From: Bombiscardovia coagulans
Lineage (GTDB): Bacteria > Actinomycetota > Actinomycetes > Actinomycetales > Bifidobacteriaceae
Direction: 5' to 3'
Length of the DNA: 64,000 bases
NCBI RefSeq assembly: GCF_002259585.1
Contig: NZ_MWWS01000004.1
Location: 496,001-560,000, forward strand
Shown here: positions 7,138 through 37,810 of the stretch, piece by piece
How the letters are laid out: each line of letters begins with the position of its first letter
How positions within the stretch are numbered: the stretch's first letter is position 1
Translations under genes and position numbers: made by a program
The notes under the pieces: model-generated
Seen by the model: the letters and a program-made list of their open reading frames with translations, nothing else
Databases searched by the model: none
What the model was told of the DNA's origin: nothing

Positions 7138-8778
7138 GTGCACAAAGTAAAGCGTCTAGCTATATTTCTACTAACGTTCACGGTTCTTTTGGCCATTGTT
7201 GCTGGTTTGGGTTCAGCAACTACCCCCTCTTGGGAGGTGTCCAAAAATACCGACCATGTCAAGGTTGCAACTGCTGATACCACCATTGCATCACAACTTG
7301 GCAGCACCAGTTTAGAAGGCAGCTACCGCACCAAAGAAACCAAAACTACCGTCCGCCTAGCTCCTCATGTTTCTGTTAACGCCATTATTCGCGAACCAGT
7401 CAATGCACCTGCCAATCATCCAGCTTGTCTTTTCATACATGGGGCAGGTACAGGTTTATCATCACAAGTATATGGCGACCTGGCTTCTGCCTTAGCTTCA
7501 GCAGGAATTACCACATTAGTTCCGGATAAGCGTATGGATACTTATACTACCTTGCACCGCGATTACCAAGGTATGGCTGAAGATTATACGAAGTCGTTAG
7601 CTATACTTCGTACATGGCCTGGTGTAGATCCCAGCAAAACCGGTTTGTATGCTGAGTCCGAAGGCACATGGGTTTCTTCTGTCATGACAGCACAAGATCC
7701 CAGCATCGCTTTCTCAATTCTGACCTCAGCCCCAATATACCCAGGCCGCAGGCAAATGCCTATGGCCATAACTTCGTACTTAAATCAGATTCACGCTCCT
7801 CAGGGTGTACAAGCCATCATTCCAAAATTGCTAGGCATGAATTTTAGTCCCTTGGGACTGGAATACGCTGATTTTAATGCCTTACCGTATTGGAATCAGC
7901 TCAAAGTTCCAGCCCTTCTCAACTACGGAACCGAAGATACTTCTATGCCTATTGAGCAAGGGACACTAGAGCTTTTAAAGCGTGCTCGTTCATCGAATAA
8001 CACTAATGTGACAGTACGGTACTATAACACTAACCATCAGATGCGAGTTGGCAGTCAGCTCCCCCAAGCCAACCTTCCCTTAGACGACCACTACACACAT
8101 AATTTAGAGGCTTGGATTGGTGCTGTCTGCCAGGGAACGAAGACTTCGGATTGGGCAACTCCACTCATTGCCGGCACCCAGCCCCAGCAGCATTTTAGTG
8201 TACCTGCACACCCGCAACCTGGCCTCTTCAAATCTCTAGGAACATTGATCGCTTTGCTGGCTGCCAGCCTCATCTTCAACCTGTTAGCTGTCATCGGTGC
8301 TGTGATGATAGCTCTTTGCCGATTATTCAACCGTTCTCAGTCATCCATGAAACGTTATCGTTTTGGTACACATCTTCCACTCCTACTGGCATCACAGGGG
8401 TTGGCAAGTTTCCTTATGCTGGTGGCCTGCTCAGCTTACATTGCCCTAGTCATGGTACATGCGTTGACGCTCTCACCATTAAGCGACAACCAGGTTCAAC
8501 TGTGGGTAATAGTGAAAGCGCTGAGCCTACTTCCCCTTGTCCTTCTTGCAGCACTCATCGAGCATGTACTCAATGCGGCTGTCATGCAAAGAGCTGGTCG
8601 CGCGCACCTTGAGGGCAAACATGCGTCAGCAACTTCCGGCATGGGCAACTATGGATTCACTAGCCAAACACCCATCATAGCTAGAGGTTGGGGGCATTGG
8701 ATCGTCTTTGCTCTTGCAATAGGCGGCAGTCTGGCCTGCCTGTGCTGCTTGTCCTTTTGGGGAATGTATAGCTTTTAG
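7138..8778 (+). CDS. Alpha/beta hydrolase with C-terminal membrane domain
   Basis: 546 residues from a GTG start with only a weak ribosome binding site. Residues 7-26 form an N-terminal hydrophobic helix or signal anchor. The next 300 residues are an alpha/beta hydrolase: oxyanion segment HGAGTG (101-106), nucleophile elbow YAESEG with Ser174, Asp267 in YGTEDTS and His300 in NTNHQM as the probable triad. About four hydrophobic helices occupy residues 350-545. The hydrolase domain is likely on the outer face of the membrane. Substrate unknown; an esterase or a lipid or peptidoglycan modification role is possible. The stop is 2 bp from the stop of the convergent neighbour. Confidence 0.75.
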   Translation: MHKVKRLAIFLLTFTVLLAIVAGLGSATTPSWEVSKNTDHVKVATADTTIASQLGSTSLEGSYRTKETKTTVRLAPHVSVNAIIREPVNAPANHPACLFIHGAGTGLSSQVYGDLASALASAGITTLVPDKRMDTYTTLHRDYQGMAEDYTKSLAILRTWPGVDPSKTGLYAESEGTWVSSVMTAQDPSIAFSILTSAPIYPGRRQMPMAITSYLNQIHAPQGVQAIIPKLLGMNFSPLGLEYADFNALPYWNQLKVPALLNYGTEDTSMPIEQGTLELLKRARSSNNTNVTVRYYNTNHQMRVGSQLPQANLPLDDHYTHNLEAWIGAVCQGTKTSDWATPLIAGTQPQQHFSVPAHPQPGLFKSLGTLIALLAASLIFNLLAVIGAVMIALCRLFNRSQSSMKRYRFGTHLPLLLASQGLASFLMLVACSAYIALVMVHALTLSPLSDNQVQLWVIVKALSLLPLVLLAALIEHVLNAAVMQRAGRAHLEGKHASATSGMGNYGFTSQTPIIARGWGHWIVFALAIGGSLACLCCLSFWGMYSF

Positions 8779-31487: not shown

Positions 31488-32999
31488 ATGAGCCAACAGC
31501 ATATATCTCACAGCGACGCTTCAGCCAATGCCACCTCATGTGACTTCGCAACGTGGGCTCGTGACTACTCGCAGCACACCAATCGTTCCCTAGCAGGATC
31601 CCGGTTCATCCTAACCAAAACGCTCAATTCAGGTTCGACAGGCTGTGCTTTCGAACAGGTAGCTCAAGAGTGGGGTATGAATATTGTACAAGCTGACAGC
31701 CCTGAAGACCATAACAATTTCACAGCACACGTTGAGTCCACTGCCGTAGAACCTGATTTGCGAACCAGCTCAGGAAAACAAGCTATGGACTTGGCTCAGC
31801 AACACATGCCAGTTTTAAAGAAACTTGTAGACCAACTTAGCCACGAGCACGACATGAGGCAGCTAAGGGTGGCCATGTGCCTTATTCTAGAGCCCAAAAC
31901 CGCAATCCTGGCCCGCCTCCTAGTTCAAGCAGGTGCGCAAGTAGGTATTTATAGCGGACCAGAAACTCTAAATACTCGTGTGGCTCAGCAACTTGAATCA
32001 GAGGGTGTTACAGTCTATGCAAATCCTGCTTGGAATCCAGAGGAAGCAAAACAAGCTGCGCTAACGTTACTCGATACCCTCAAGCCGAATCTCATCATCG
32101 ACGACGGCGCATCGTTTGCCCGCTTAGCTGCCCGTGAGCGCCCAGAATTGGCAGCAACGCTTATTGGGGTTGCAGAAGAGACCACATCTGGTGTACGCGC
32201 TTTCGATGCTATGGAAATTGACCAGGTTTTACCTTTTCCTGTAGTAGCAGTTAATGACAGCCTCATGAAAACTGGATTCGACAATGCACACGGTACCGGC
32301 GAAACCTGCATCACGACCATACAGCAACTGCTGGGCGCACACTGTTTCCAAGATACAGCTCTAACAGTTATCGGGTTCGGCCCCGTAGGCCGCGGATTTG
32401 CCCGGCGAGCACGAACGTTAGGAGCACAAGTAACCATCTGTGACACAGATCCTAGAGCATGCTTACAAGCTGTATTTGAAGGATTTCCAACACGAGACCT
32501 CAAGGATACTCTGCCCGCTGCTGACATGGTTATCTCAGCTACCGGTGTGTACCACACTGTCAATCTGACTCATATGCACAGTATGCGCGATGGGACTATC
32601 CTTGGCGTCATCGGAGGCATGGCAAATGAGATAGCACTGGATAACATACCTCAAAAATGTTCCCAAATGAACGAACCCGTCAGCGAATTGCATATACCCC
32701 ACGGCCCTCATCTCACCTTGCTGGCAGGAGGCAATGGCATCAATTACACTGCTGGCGGAGGTAACCCTATCGAGATAATGGACTTGAGTTTTGCTGTACA
32801 AGTTGCGGCCCTCAAATGGCTGTTAGAGAACTACCGCACGCTAGACAAGAAAGTCTACCGTCTGCCTGACCTGGTAGATCAACAAATAGCCTTGGCTGCA
32901 CTCTCATCTCGCGGCTATGAAATAAGCCACAGTGAAGACAACACCAGTAATAACTGGCAAGTTACACGCTTCGACCAACCTAACGGTACACAATACTAA
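31488..32999 (+). CDS. Divergent adenosylhomocysteinase homologue
   Basis: 503 residues; AGGAGG nine bases before ATG. The NAD(H)-binding fold is intact (VIGFGPVGRG 294-303; acidic DTDP 319-322) and several adenosylhomocysteinase (AHCY) landmarks are clear: EPKTA (135-139), PNLIIDDG (200-207), VAEETTSGV (228-236), VNDSLMKTGFDN (255-266) with the catalytic Lys. By eye alignment other key residues differ: the His of the LHxxxKT motif is Ile133, the Asp of DDGGD is replaced, the His of GHFD is Gly377, the His of GHP is Asn426, and the C-terminal Lys-Tyr signature is absent. It forms a likely operon with the deaminase 60 bp downstream. Confidence 0.75.
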   Translation: MSQQHISHSDASANATSCDFATWARDYSQHTNRSLAGSRFILTKTLNSGSTGCAFEQVAQEWGMNIVQADSPEDHNNFTAHVESTAVEPDLRTSSGKQAMDLAQQHMPVLKKLVDQLSHEHDMRQLRVAMCLILEPKTAILARLLVQAGAQVGIYSGPETLNTRVAQQLESEGVTVYANPAWNPEEAKQAALTLLDTLKPNLIIDDGASFARLAARERPELAATLIGVAEETTSGVRAFDAMEIDQVLPFPVVAVNDSLMKTGFDNAHGTGETCITTIQQLLGAHCFQDTALTVIGFGPVGRGFARRARTLGAQVTICDTDPRACLQAVFEGFPTRDLKDTLPAADMVISATGVYHTVNLTHMHSMRDGTILGVIGGMANEIALDNIPQKCSQMNEPVSELHIPHGPHLTLLAGGNGINYTAGGGNPIEIMDLSFAVQVAALKWLLENYRTLDKKVYRLPDLVDQQIALAALSSRGYEISHSEDNTSNNWQVTRFDQPNGTQY

Positions 33000-33059
33000 A
33001 CCGTTCACCGCGAACCAGTAACAGTAATCATTCACAGCACAGGAGGGGCGACATCCAAG

Positions 33060-34472
33060 ATGAGCATGAACACGCAACCTAACCCATCACAACCGACGCT
33101 CAACCATGCCGCCCTCACCGATGTCAGCATTTACTCAGCTCGTCTAGTCATTCCCGTAACAGCACCCGTCATCGTTAACGGTTCCGTAGCTGTGAGCGGC
33201 AGGCGGGTAATTCACGTAGGAACAAGGAATTGGGTACGGCAAGAACTGTCTGACGAACTGGCCCAGGGCGCTCATGTACGTGAGTATTACTGGGATGGAA
33301 TCCTCATGCCTGGTTTAGTCAACGCCCACACCCATTTGCAATACACTGGTATGGCAGCTGTCGGGAAAGGCAATTATGACGATTTCCACGCTTGGGAGAC
33401 AGCTTTCAATGATATATATGATGACGATACTGTCTCTCATGACTGGCAGCACTGGGCAAAACTAGGCGCTAGGCAGATGGTCGAATCTGGTACTACTGCG
33501 GCAGCAGATATCGTTACTGACGCAGAAGCAGCCATAGCACTTACTTCCCAGCATCTGCATGGGATTTCATACTGGGAAGTCATGGGATGGAACAACGAAG
33601 ATTGGGAACACAGGGGATTATCCCAACTTAATGCGGATCTCAACTATCTGAAAAATGAGCATGTGAATGCAATCGGTATCAGCCCCCACGCACCGTACAC
33701 ACTCGACTCTGAACCCTTTGTGGACCTACCAAGCATAGCCAGGATGCTCAATATGCGGTTACACATCCATCTAGCTGAAACTCCATTGGAAGCATCTGCA
33801 AATCCTCCCGTACTATCTACATATTCTTCGCCCGAGTGGCAAAACCAGTACTGGACCAGCTATCGTGACTTAAAAAACCAAGGCCGACGGGCTTCAGCCA
33901 TTCAATTCATGGATTTACTTGGTTCGCTCGGACCTGATGTTCACATCGCTCACGGTGTTTGGGCAAATGAGGAAGACCGCCGTATTTTGCGTCAGCGACA
34001 GGTATATGTGGCCCTCTGCCCTCGCTCAAATCGAATCACTAACACCGGTCGCGATGCCCCAGTTCGCGAATATCTCGAAGAAGGCAATGCTTTGTCCATC
34101 GGAACTGATTCTCTTTCCAGCTCCCCCAGTTTAGATGTGATGGACGAATGCGTTGCCCTTTACGATCTGGCCCGCTCCCAGGGTTACCAAAGACCCGACC
34201 TCTCTCACCGGTTGATTCACATGGCCACCCTAGGAGGAGCGGCGTCTATGGGCATGCATGTAGGAATGAACCGTATCGGCCAGCTTAATTCAGGCGCTCT
34301 TGCTGATCTTGCTTTCTTTGACATACCAGTAAAATCGAGGAGCCCACAAGAACTCGAAGAAACGTTCGATAATCTCGTCCGATACGGTGGTGGCACAAAT
34401 CGAGCTACCGTTATTTCTGGATCACTAGTCTATGGGCAAGATACGCTAGATACTGAAGACAGCATCGCGTGA
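33060..34472 (+). CDS. Amidohydrolase, SAH/methylthioadenosine deaminase type
   Basis: 470 residues; AGGAGGGG about 11 bases upstream, with a second ATG two codons in. Metal-dependent amidohydrolase of the MtaD/TrzN branch: HxH in NAHTHLQ (His90, His92), His237 and Glu240 in HIHLAE, His298 in IAHGVWA, Asp350 in IGTDSLSS. Close relatives deaminate S-adenosylhomocysteine, 5'-methylthioadenosine or adenosine to the inosine forms. Pairing with an AHCY homologue points to SAH as substrate, giving S-inosylhomocysteine. Confidence 0.82.
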   Translation: MSMNTQPNPSQPTLNHAALTDVSIYSARLVIPVTAPVIVNGSVAVSGRRVIHVGTRNWVRQELSDELAQGAHVREYYWDGILMPGLVNAHTHLQYTGMAAVGKGNYDDFHAWETAFNDIYDDDTVSHDWQHWAKLGARQMVESGTTAAADIVTDAEAAIALTSQHLHGISYWEVMGWNNEDWEHRGLSQLNADLNYLKNEHVNAIGISPHAPYTLDSEPFVDLPSIARMLNMRLHIHLAETPLEASANPPVLSTYSSPEWQNQYWTSYRDLKNQGRRASAIQFMDLLGSLGPDVHIAHGVWANEEDRRILRQRQVYVALCPRSNRITNTGRDAPVREYLEEGNALSIGTDSLSSSPSLDVMDECVALYDLARSQGYQRPDLSHRLIHMATLGGAASMGMHVGMNRIGQLNSGALADLAFFDIPVKSRSPQELEETFDNLVRYGGGTNRATVISGSLVYGQDTLDTEDSIA

Positions 34473-34525: not shown

Positions 34526-35005
34526 ATGAGCCTACCTCTTAGCGATATGAGCCCCTTCGCCCAGTCACTGGTGGAACGACTGCACCTAGAGCCCCATCCC
34601 GAAGGAGGCTGGTACGATTCAACTTGGCGAAGCAGCCACATTGATCAAGTTTCAGATCGACCACTGGCTTCTCTGATTTACTTCCTGCTGGCCGAAGGCG
34701 ATGCTAGCGCCTGGCACAAGGTTGATGCAGATGAAATTTGGCTCTGGCACGGACCAGCACCAGTCCTCCTTGAACTGGGCGGCTACGGGGACGCTCCCAG
34801 CGAAGATCCCTCCCAGCGCAAACAAATTACCTTAGGCGCCCAACTCACCAATGGTGGCAGCCAGGATGCAGACACGGAGCCTGTGGGACAGCTGTTAGTG
34901 CCCAAGGGCTGCTGGCAGCGCACCCTACCAGGTCAGGGCGATGCTTTGGTCTCATGCGTCGTAAGCCCTGGTTTCACTTTTGATGGTTTTACACTTCAAG
35001 ACTGA
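34526..35005 (+). CDS. Cupin-family protein (DUF985/Cupin_5)
   Basis: 159 residues; AAAAGGAG directly upstream of ATG. Matches DUF985: HPEGGWY, then SLIYFLLAEGDASAWHKVDADEIWLWHGP with the His and Glu positions that hold the metal in cupins, and a C-terminal VSPGFTFDGF. Structures of the family are small beta-barrels; the reaction is unknown (sugar isomerase- or epimerase-like is often guessed). Follows the deaminase by 53 bp; possibly the last gene of that transcript, ended by the hairpin at 35011. Confidence 0.88.
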   Translation: MSLPLSDMSPFAQSLVERLHLEPHPEGGWYDSTWRSSHIDQVSDRPLASLIYFLLAEGDASAWHKVDADEIWLWHGPAPVLLELGGYGDAPSEDPSQRKQITLGAQLTNGGSQDADTEPVGQLLVPKGCWQRTLPGQGDALVSCVVSPGFTFDGFTLQD

Positions 35006-35252: not shown

Positions 35253-36113
35253 ATGACACTCATGAGCAAAAATAACATTATCCGCATGGTTGCAGCATCA
35301 CTGAGTACACTACTGCTCATAGCAGGGTCTGGATGTGGGTCTTCTGCTACTTCTTCAGAGTCTTCTCAAGCACAGTCCATCACTGAAGAAACACTCGTTC
35401 CTGGTACGCTAACTATCGCAACTGGCGAACCGGCATATGCTCCTTATGTTATCGACAACAAGCCTGAAAGCGGCAAAGGCTTCGAATCTGCTGTGGCCTA
35501 TGCGGTAGCAGAAAAGATGGGATTTACCAAAGATCATGTTAAGTGGACCCGCACCACTTTCGACGCAGCGATTGCGCCGGGCACCAAAGACTATGACATG
35601 AACATTCAACAGTTCTCAATTACTCCAGAGCGTAAAAAGGCAGTGGACTTCACCCCTGCATACTATAACTCCACACAATCGGTTCTCATCAAAAGTGATT
35701 CAAAGTATGCCAACGCCAAAAGCTTGAATGAAATCAAATCCGGCAGTATTGGCGCCATGGTAGGTTCAACTTCCTATACCTTTGCCAAGAGCAAGATCAA
35801 AGATGATATACAGACCTTCAACGATAACGTATCTTTAGCGCAAGCTCTTGATTCCAAACAGGTTGACGCTATTGTTTTTGATACACCGGCAGCTGTTCAA
35901 GCTATCCAGTCAGGACAGATCAAGGACGGTAAGATACTCGGTCAGATTGAGGGTTCTACCGATCCTGAAGGTGCAGGCATTGTGCTGCCTAAAGATTCAA
36001 AACTCACCAAGGCCGCATCCAAAGCTGTGACGGACTTAACCAAGGACGGCACAATGAAAAAACTTCAAGAGACTTGGCTGAAAGAATACAACGACATCCC
36101 CGTACTCAAATAG
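35253..36113 (+). CDS. Amino-acid ABC transporter substrate-binding lipoprotein
   Basis: 286 residues. Signal peptide to about residue 27, lipobox-like end AGSGCGSS (Cys28), then a Ser-rich linker. SBP family 3 features: LTIATGEPAYAPYV, GKGFESAVAYAVAEKMG, NIQQFSITPERKKAVDFT. These bind polar amino acids (Glu, Gln, Arg, cystine) outside the membrane. AGGAG eight bases before ATG. First of three genes encoding a complete importer. Confidence 0.92.
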   Translation: MTLMSKNNIIRMVAASLSTLLLIAGSGCGSSATSSESSQAQSITEETLVPGTLTIATGEPAYAPYVIDNKPESGKGFESAVAYAVAEKMGFTKDHVKWTRTTFDAAIAPGTKDYDMNIQQFSITPERKKAVDFTPAYYNSTQSVLIKSDSKYANAKSLNEIKSGSIGAMVGSTSYTFAKSKIKDDIQTFNDNVSLAQALDSKQVDAIVFDTPAAVQAIQSGQIKDGKILGQIEGSTDPEGAGIVLPKDSKLTKAASKAVTDLTKDGTMKKLQETWLKEYNDIPVLK

Positions 36114-36146: not shown

Positions 36147-37010
36147 TTGAGTATGTCGTCAGCAGATCAGATACAAGTCTCGTCCGTACAACGCGAGAGA
36201 GAAGCGTATCAGCGCAAACAAAATCTCAAGTCAGTAGCGACATCGGTAATTTCTACAATTGTTTTTGCTTTCCTTGTTGCGGTTGGTTTACAGCTATCGC
36301 CAGGCTGGCCCAAGGTAAAGGAATCTTTCTTTTCGGGCCAGTACTTCGTTCAAGCCTTCCCTAAGGTACTTCAAGGACTTTGGCTCAATGTGCAAGTGCT
36401 GTTCTTTGCCGTTATTGGCGTGGCAATCTTAGGAACGCTCTTAGCTGTAATTCGCACCAGCAAATCAGCTTTCCTTTTTCCGCTGCGGGTGCTAGCTCAA
36501 CTTTATACCACAATCATGCGTGGCATACCCATGATTGTGGTATTGTATTTGATCGGTTTTGGCATTCCTGGTTTGGGCATTTTTGGTCGGATTCCAGCCG
36601 CTTTCTTAGGCACGGTTGCGGTTATCCTCTCCTACTCAGCCTATATTGCTGAGGTCTTGCGGGCTGGCTTCCAAGACGTGCACCCATCCCAGCGTGCATC
36701 AGCACGTTCTCTTGGCTTGACTTCTGGTCAGACGATGCGTCTAGTTGTCATCCCTCAAGCCTTACGTAAAGTGGCACCAGCCCTCATGAACGATTTTATT
36801 TCCATGCAAAAAGATGTTGGATTGATTTCAGTTTTGGGTGCGGTAGACGCGGTAAGAGCGGCTCAAATCGTAGTCGCTTCTTCATACAATTTTACCCCGT
36901 ATGTAGTCGCATCAGTCCTCTTCATTGCCACTTCTGTACCATTCATCTTGCTCAATGACTGGTATTCAGCACGCTTACGTCAGCGCGAGCAGAGCGGAGG
37001 TACAGTATGA
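36147..37010 (+). CDS. Amino-acid ABC transporter permease
   Basis: 287 residues from a TTG start (GAAAGAG five bases upstream); the ATG two codons later at 36153 is the alternative. A 35-residue polar head, then six helices of the HisM/GlnP type with the EAA loop AEVLRAGFQDVHPSQRASARSLGLT contacting the ATPase. A single permease gene implies a homodimer. Overlaps the ATPase gene by 4 bp (ATGA). Confidence 0.92.
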   Translation: MSMSSADQIQVSSVQREREAYQRKQNLKSVATSVISTIVFAFLVAVGLQLSPGWPKVKESFFSGQYFVQAFPKVLQGLWLNVQVLFFAVIGVAILGTLLAVIRTSKSAFLFPLRVLAQLYTTIMRGIPMIVVLYLIGFGIPGLGIFGRIPAAFLGTVAVILSYSAYIAEVLRAGFQDVHPSQRASARSLGLTSGQTMRLVVIPQALRKVAPALMNDFISMQKDVGLISVLGAVDAVRAAQIVVASSYNFTPYVVASVLFIATSVPFILLNDWYSARLRQREQSGGTV

Positions 37011-37810
37011 TCCAGCAAGAAACTCAGGAGAAAACGGCCATGAGTGAGTCTAAGCAAGCTGACTCCCAGCAACTACAAACCGTGCTTAGGCTGGATCAGG
37101 TACGTAAATCTTATGGTTCGAATGCAGTGTTACGAGGGATCTCTTTTCAAGTACGTGCTCATGAAACAGTTGCCCTTCTGGGACCTTCAGGTTCTGGAAA
37201 ATCGACATTGATGAAATGTATCAATTTACTTGAAGAAGTCAATGATGGGCAAATATGGTTGGGAGACACAGACATTACGAACCCAACAGTCAATCGTGAT
37301 CATTGTCGCTCCAGAATTGGGGTTGTTTTCCAGCAGTTTAACCTCTTCCCCCATATGAACGTGTTAAAAAACGTGACTTTGGGCGCTATTAAGGTTCATA
37401 ACATGCCGAAAGATGAGGCCAATGACAAGGCACTGGAATTACTAGATCGAATTGGAATGAGAGCAAAGGCTAGCTCATACCCCGACCAGCTTTCTGGTGG
37501 TCAACAGCAGCGCGTCGCCATCGTACGTGCCCTCATGTGCGATCCAGAGCTTTTACTCCTCGACGAAATAACTTCTGCCTTAGACCCTATGCTGGTCGGC
37601 GAAGTCCTTGAAATGGTTGCCGAGTTAAAAACCAAGGGAACCACCATACTCATGGCCACTCACGAAATGTCATTTGCTCATGATGCTGCTGATCGCATAG
37701 TCTTGCTTTTAAACGGAAAAATTGCTGAAAATGGCAGCCCCCGAGAAGTAATGGACGAATCTCAGAACCCACAAACGATCGAATTTTTCAGCCATTTCCG
37801 CGGCATCTAA
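37007..37810 (+). CDS. Amino-acid ABC transporter ATP-binding protein
   Basis: 267 residues with GGAGG six bases before ATG. GlnQ/HisP type ATPase: Walker A GPSGSGKST, Q-loop VFQQFNLFPHM, signature LSGGQQQRVAI, Walker B LLLLDEITSALD, H-loop ATHEM. The usual Pro of DEPTSALD is Ile here (DEITSALD), a minor variant. A 25-residue polar head precedes the domain. It completes the importer started at 35253; the ribF gene converges 76 bp downstream. Confidence 0.94.
   Translation: MIQQETQEKTAMSESKQADSQQLQTVLRLDQVRKSYGSNAVLRGISFQVRAHETVALLGPSGSGKSTLMKCINLLEEVNDGQIWLGDTDITNPTVNRDHCRSRIGVVFQQFNLFPHMNVLKNVTLGAIKVHNMPKDEANDKALELLDRIGMRAKASSYPDQLSGGQQQRVAIVRALMCDPELLLLDEITSALDPMLVGEVLEMVAELKTKGTTILMATHEMSFAHDAADRIVLLLNGKIAENGSPREVMDESQNPQTIEFFSHFRGI

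Follow-up and report, generated by a model that had tools for sequence, protein, structure and literature searches.

The window analysed here is a 64,000-nt stretch of the Bombiscardovia coagulans genome (GCF_002259585.1, NZ_MWWS01000004.1:496,001-560,000, forward strand). On its plus strand, positions 31488..32999 encode a 503-aa NAD-dependent protein of the adenosylhomocysteinase (AHCY) fold with an altered active site (ORF, Pfam/NCBIfam, alignment and structural model), followed at 33060..34472 (+) by a 470-aa COG0402-type amidohydrolase, a predicted adenosyl-nucleoside deaminase (ORF, Pfam, alignment and model). The next genes, all on the same strand, encode a DUF985 (Cupin_5) protein, the usual third member of the cluster (34526..35005, +; Pfam and locus comparison), and a polar amino acid ABC importer made up of a family-3 solute-binding lipoprotein in which the SITxxR arginine is present (35253..36113, +; Pfam/NCBIfam and alignment), a permease (36147..37010, +) and an ATPase (37007..37810, +; both from Pfam/NCBIfam and locus comparison).

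Annotation and predicted structures

The AHCY-like protein was matched by Pfam AdoHcyase and AdoHcyase_NAD (98.7 and 81.9 bits) and by the NCBIfam model NF004009 “adenosylhomocysteinase” (637 bits against a cut-off of 485). Its predicted structure (mean pLDDT 90.9) superposed best on P. furiosus AHCY with inosine (7r37; Z 45.2, 2.1 Å over 400 residues), with the T. maritima and M. maripaludis enzymes within 1 Z of this match; by Pfam and by superposition, the protein has both the fold and the NAD-binding domain of AHCY. NF004009 probably over-annotates the altered clade, described below, as adenosylhomocysteinase.

The deaminase was matched by Pfam Amidohydro_1 (111 bits) and carries the metal-binding and catalytic residues of amidohydrolases (H90, H92, H210, H237, E240, H298, D350) together with the PHAPY motif, as MTA/SAH deaminases do. 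It reached the cut-off of no curated NCBIfam deaminase equivalog, with all scores far lower, among them 74 bits against 779 for the MTA/SAH deaminase model NF012037 and 121 bits against 522 for the 5′-deoxyadenosine deaminase model. The first structural matches of its model (mean pLDDT 88.6) were adenosine/MTA/SAH-type deaminases (TM ∼0.74), followed by aminofutalosine deaminases and TM0936, and its profile matched aminofutalosine deaminases and DR_0824 across most of its length.

Active-site residues

The active site was read from phmmer alignments to solved AHCYs, with P. furiosus numbering mapped on. According to Koeppl et al. 2024 (PMC10978960), key residues of the P. furiosus enzyme are Glu57 and Lys59 of the HxExK motif, Asp128, the gate His298-Phe299 and, in the pocket for the nucleobase, Asp348; these numbers, mapped on our alignment, land on the residues named there. 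In the window protein I133 occupies the position of the catalytic His (LHxxxKT), which belongs to the HxTxE(Q) or HxExK motif of AHCYs; the molecular gate His-Phe is replaced by G377-M378 (the His of GHFD becoming Gly377), and the His of GHP by N426. Retained are E135, K137, D206, E231, K261, D265 and N266. D206, the second of the two Asp residues in DDG, is the catalytic Asp (equivalent to rat 130 and P. furiosus 128), and S209 stands at the third Asp of DDGGD, which is a different residue. The rat AHCY mutagenesis papers in the reference list of PMC10978960 name Asp130, Glu155, Lys185, Asp189 and Asn190, and their offsets from Asp130 (+25, +55, +59, +60) give a spacing identical to that of D206, E231, K261, D265 and N266.

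An earlier note on this DNA had placed both ORFs where they are given above, and its description of the first as an AHCY homologue with the NAD fold and the KTGFDN and EETT motifs, lacking His at Ile133, Gly377 and Asn426, agrees with the alignments, the Pfam/NCBIfam matches and the predicted structure. The adjoining deaminase, which the note called MtaD-type with all metal ligands, does have amidohydrolase metal and catalytic residues (H90, H92, H237, E240, H298, D350). Its claim that the catalytic Asp is also lost proved mistaken: the third Asp of DDGGD had been chosen, and on alignment the Asp is conserved and the His is lost. The C-terminal Lys-Tyr signature is absent, as the note had said, but its loss was rejected as a special feature, being ordinary in archaeal- and Thermotoga-type enzymes. 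Overlooked at that stage was E135-x-K137, a nucleobase motif of the S-inosylhomocysteine (SIH) type.

Conservation and phylogeny of the altered family

Thirty-six altered proteins from Actinobacteria, one Clostridiales MAG and Granulosicoccus were aligned. E135, K137, D205-D206, E230-E231-T-T, K261, D265 and N266 were invariant in all 36, and G376-G377 and N426 were likewise without exception; in the bifidobacterial alignment the catalytic His position was occupied by I or V, and in the other carriers by a residue other than His. Between close species pairs dN/dS was 0.09 to 0.26, indicating purifying selection. Since the residue changes are held across 36 diverse homologues under such selection, they are not attributable to chance or decay. 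Canonical enzymes sampled in the same way (Firmicutes HxExK, gammaproteobacterial and actinobacterial) have the catalytic His, and GHF and GHP were also present wherever those motifs were read. Altered proteins fell on one side of a single branch (support 100/100; 100% of 200 bootstrap trees), separated from the T. maritima and P. furiosus enzymes, the M. maripaludis SIH hydrolase (SIHH) and the Firmicutes HxExK enzymes, and speaking of one clade presumes a root among the canonical enzymes, as the tree is unrooted. Firmicutes homologues in the same score range and, Granulosicoccus excepted, those of Gammaproteobacteria were set aside as canonical, with the His intact in those inspected; the motif pattern was not cleanly readable in two loci (L190 and L198). 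One copy (L031) has an internal stop. A search for viral relatives returned no match.

HxExK enzymes favor SIH and HxTxE(Q) enzymes favor SAH (Koeppl et al., PMC10978960), and in P. furiosus N1 of inosine is bound by Glu57 and O6 by Lys59 (PMC10978960). The altered family retains the E-x-K of HxExK, present and invariant as E135 and K137, and has lost the His, so the full SIHH fingerprint is absent, and by the branch described above the family lies outside the SIHH clade. At the level of sequence, the E-x-K fingerprint predicts a hypoxanthine-type substrate for the altered AHCY, and this would match the product that the adjacent deaminase would make.

Distribution and gene neighborhood

The AHCY-like gene had a strong match in 57 of 189 Bifidobacteriaceae genomes, and the deaminase was found in the identical set, each genome having both or neither; five further weak AHCY-like matches in this search (E 1e-5 to 1e-3) resemble other Rossmann proteins. 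The two genes are adjacent in every Bifidobacteriaceae locus examined, and their linkage is retained in Coriobacteriia, Microbacteriaceae, Actinomycetaceae and Clostridiales. Bifidobacterium, Gardnerella, Alloscardovia, Coriobacteriia, Microbacteriaceae, Demequina and Schaalia share one gene order (AHCY-like gene, deaminase, cupin, ABC importer), which Clostridiales MAGs also have, minus the cupin. In Mycobacterium, Rathayibacter and Cryobacterium the ABC importer is replaced by an ECF transporter between the AHCY-like gene and the deaminase, consisting of a fused double ATPase, a CbiQ-type T component and an S component (PF07155 in L078); the Cryobacterium S component belongs to a vitamin-type transporter family. 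The DUF985 cupin, which was not found in the mycobacterial, Clostridiales or Granulosicoccus versions, is a regular member of the actinobacterial cluster and might process the sugar product. Across 21 clusters the solute-binding proteins have a distinctive common sequence, with a SITxxR-type arginine in nearly all; a few are without the amino-group Asp. We take this arginine to hold the ligand carboxylate in amino-acid binding proteins, and the Asp to be the amino-group contact.

An Rfam search of eight loci found no riboswitch at gathering level, and none was found in the window region at E up to 1; a scan for consensus promoters and terminators did no better than on shuffles. Three side observations were made in individual loci: an abiF RNA match (RF03085, L081:4436-4471) in a Rathayibacter locus, unrelated to the cluster; a luciferase-like monooxygenase downstream of the mycobacterial cluster (L083:13500-14693), with a possible link to sulfur metabolism; and a Bifidobacteriaceae locus in which the AHCY-like gene and the deaminase are both interrupted (G050:C27:36235-39205), through joint decay or possibly an assembly error. 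Literature searches on SIH, SAH deaminase, DUF985 and SAH uptake brought up the archaeal study (PMC10978960) but no paper that deals with this cluster.

N-terminal extension

Approximately residues 18 to 70 of the window protein (31539..31697, +; conservation, hhalign and model) form an N-terminal extension with an SQxTNxSLAG motif, a stretch that is conserved at the start of the bifidobacterial proteins and modelled as a folded beta-alpha-beta unit (pLDDT ∼80 to 95). In Rathayibacter, Cryobacterium and Mycolicibacterium this motif (ASNLSFA, ATNLSFAG) lies in a separate upstream ORF of 184 to 251 aa that has a Gly-rich dinucleotide motif. The profile of this ORF aligned to the AHCY NAD domain over 83 columns, TN..AG on TN..AG, with an hhalign probability of 96.5%, a value that is supportive and not proof, as Rossmann folds generally can score well. 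Small Rossmann-like ORFs directly 5′ of the altered AHCY were seen in L078, L081, L083, L088, L090 and L097 (∼7210-7968); they are apparently decayed AHCY NAD domains, fused or truncated in other lineages. In a Granulosicoccus MAG (L101:3916-6413), a near-canonical AHCY (HLEAKT, DDGAE, GHH, GHP; third Asp of DDGGD changed to Glu) directly precedes the altered AHCY, and this tandem, possibly the ancestral arrangement, is followed by an amino-acid ABC importer with no deaminase alongside. From these sequence comparisons the extension is probably what remains of a second AHCY NAD domain that has decayed. With moderate confidence, a simple history would start from an AHCY tandem whose first copy dwindled to a Rossmann fragment and later to the extension seen in bifidobacteria.

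SAH recycling in carriers

The window genome has luxS (G000:C10:392649-393083) and mtnN (C10:609418-610104) as well as metE and metK, and among the 57 carriers luxS was found in 55 and mtnN in all. With these genes in place, the altered AHCY is unlikely to serve ordinary SAH recycling. Mycolicibacterium, Leifsonia, Granulosicoccus and Clostridiales MAGs also encode a second AHCY, one that has the canonical His. metE was missing in 3 of the 57 carriers (G001, G002 and G092; 78 to 84% complete) and gave weak matches only in G005, G006 and G009 (94 to 99% complete), and a MetH/MmuM-type homocysteine methyltransferase was found in none of the nine genomes tested (the window's own and eight carriers), which makes it doubtful that homocysteine is the sole useful product in those strains; where MetE is missing it would not supply methionine.

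Proposed function

We tentatively favor, at somewhat less than an even chance, a salvage module in which an imported adenosyl compound is deaminated and then undergoes NAD-dependent cleavage by the altered AHCY. From the observed linkage, co-occurrence, residue losses and retentions, fold and clade, we infer import, step order, substrate and chemistry. The ABC importer would bring in an adenosyl compound whose head group is an amino acid (SAH, or a closely related molecule, for instance SAM), and the deaminase would convert its adenine to hypoxanthine. The altered AHCY would then hold the inosyl product via E135 and K137, the 3′-OH would be oxidized with NAD by K261, D265, N266 and E231, the C4′ proton would be taken by D206, and the 5′ sulfur substituent would be released. 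With neither acid/base His nor His-Phe gate, the enzyme must carry out release, and any addition of water, differently from a normal AHCY; the difference might lie in a leaving group that departs more readily, another acid, or a larger substrate occupying a pocket without a gate. Given that the residues for 3′-oxidation and C4′ deprotonation are intact, the likeliest reaction is one in which the 5′ substituent of an inosyl compound is eliminated in an NAD-dependent manner through a modified route, with base elimination or a purely binding role as the main alternatives.

This proposal is consistent with the joint occurrence of both genes in 57 of 189 genomes, the invariant E-x-K and oxidation residues, the closest structures being inosine-bound and SIH-type, the MTA/SAH/adenosine-type fold of the deaminase, the amino-acid importer with its binding-protein Arg, and purifying selection. 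Against it stands the loss of the catalytic His, reported to be important in known AHCYs (PMC10978960), so that cleavage by the altered AHCY is a prediction; likewise, the SAH-type deaminase fold fits, but its substrate is a predicted one, and the protein is distant from curated MTA/SAH deaminases. SAH is already handled by LuxS and MtnN, some carriers have ECF instead of amino-acid ABC transporters, L101 is without an adjacent deaminase, and 6 of the 57 carriers are without a full MetE match. The earlier note had suggested a deaminate-then-hydrolyse SAH route comparable to that of Methanocaldococcus. A deaminate-then-cleave pairing is supported by joint presence or absence in 189 genomes, linkage in other phyla and retention of E-x-K; kinship with the archaeal SIHH is not supported, as SIHH retains every catalytic His and the family tree places the altered set outside it (100/100), and a part in ordinary SAH recycling is improbable with luxS and mtnN in the genome. 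The note's other suggestion, a new NAD-dependent nucleoside thioether lyase, keeps some probability.

An ordinary adenosylhomocysteinase hydrolysing SAH for the methyl cycle, as the name of NF004009 implies, would account for the score above cut-off, the AHCY fold and the retention of most catalytic residues, the Asp included. We nonetheless hold it to be very unlikely: the whole family is without the catalytic His, the gate His-Phe and the GHP His, whereas sampled Firmicutes, archaeal and other AHCYs retain them, the nucleobase motif is of the SIH and not the SAH type, mtnN and luxS are in the genome, and in several carriers a canonical AHCY is encoded as well. Another candidate is a pseudoenzyme, related to AHCY as AHCYL1 is, that would bind NAD together with an inosyl ligand and work as a sensor, as a scaffold or as the partner of the deaminase. 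Loss of the acid/base His would suit it, as would the tandem of altered and near-canonical copies in L101 and an extension that resembles the remnant of such a neighbor. The residues of 3′-oxidation and C4′ deprotonation are, however, all invariant, which argues against a mere scaffold, as it would not need them; we consider a pseudoenzyme unlikely.

Canonical SAHHs are reported to liberate adenine or hypoxanthine in a side reaction (PMC10978960), and retention of the 3′-oxidation set with loss of the His of 5′-chemistry might reflect a nucleoside lyase or dehydrogenase that has made this NAD-dependent side reaction its main one, the 3′-keto intermediate losing its base or being released or epimerized; with D206, the residue of C4′ chemistry, also retained, and with MtnN in the window genome already freeing bases from SAH and MTA, we regard this as rather improbable. 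Little probability attaches to an imported non-SAM nucleoside as substrate of both proteins, such as a natural product of nucleoside type or a modified nucleoside released in tRNA turnover. The vitamin-type family of the Cryobacterium S component, the match of the deaminase profile to aminofutalosine deaminases and DR_0824, and the lack of a SAM or SAH riboswitch near the cluster point that way, but most carriers have an amino-acid-type ABC importer whose binding protein carries the amino-acid Arg. There is a slim chance that SAM, another sulfonium or a bulky 5′-substituted adenosyl amino acid is imported, converted to its inosyl form (S-inosylmethionine, for example) and split by the AHCY-fold NAD enzyme, with direct release of methionine; a neutral thioether would be the leaving group, so this cleavage would require no general-acid His, and direct methionine release would suit carriers without a homocysteine methyltransferase.

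Gut, bee-gut and vaginal actinobacteria have the module, and databases label its enzyme adenosylhomocysteinase, so that metabolic models credit the carriers with an SAH hydrolase that is possibly absent. If the enzyme does cleave an inosyl compound with no catalytic His, it would reveal which share of the AHCY mechanism can be dispensed with, and would establish a route by which host-associated bacteria scavenge nucleosides derived from SAM.

Comparison with known systems

The altered protein shares with AHCY (EC 3.13.2.1) the fold, the NAD domain and the Asp/Glu/Lys/Asp/Asn set of 3′/4′ chemistry, all five residues being invariant, and differs from it in lacking the catalytic His and the gate, in its SIH-type nucleobase motif and in its extra N-terminal mini-domain. 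AHCYL1/IRBIT-type relatives also combine an AHCY fold with a changed function, and are a different lineage. The deaminase has the amidohydrolase fold and metal ligands of MTA/SAH deaminases (MtaD, DadD, TM0936) and aminofutalosine deaminase, and its PHAPY motif is common to 4f0r, 3lnp and 4dyk; its identity to solved MTA/SAH-type deaminases is ∼22%, and it has conserved GTDSLSS and CPRSN where MTA/SAH-type and aminofutalosine deaminases have GTDGAAS and NPASN or CPESN. SIHH and DadD of Methanocaldococcus, Methanococcus, Pyrococcus and Thermotoga likewise join a deaminase to an AHCY-fold enzyme, with the E-x-K hypoxanthine motif, a short C-terminus and the closest structures in common. Unlike the window protein, SIHH has His55, the gate His-Phe and the GHP His and belongs to a separate clade (100/100); in archaea the SIHH route constitutes the methyl cycle, whereas the window genome has LuxS and MtnN, and the altered pair, unlike the SIHH/DadD system, is linked to importers and a cupin.
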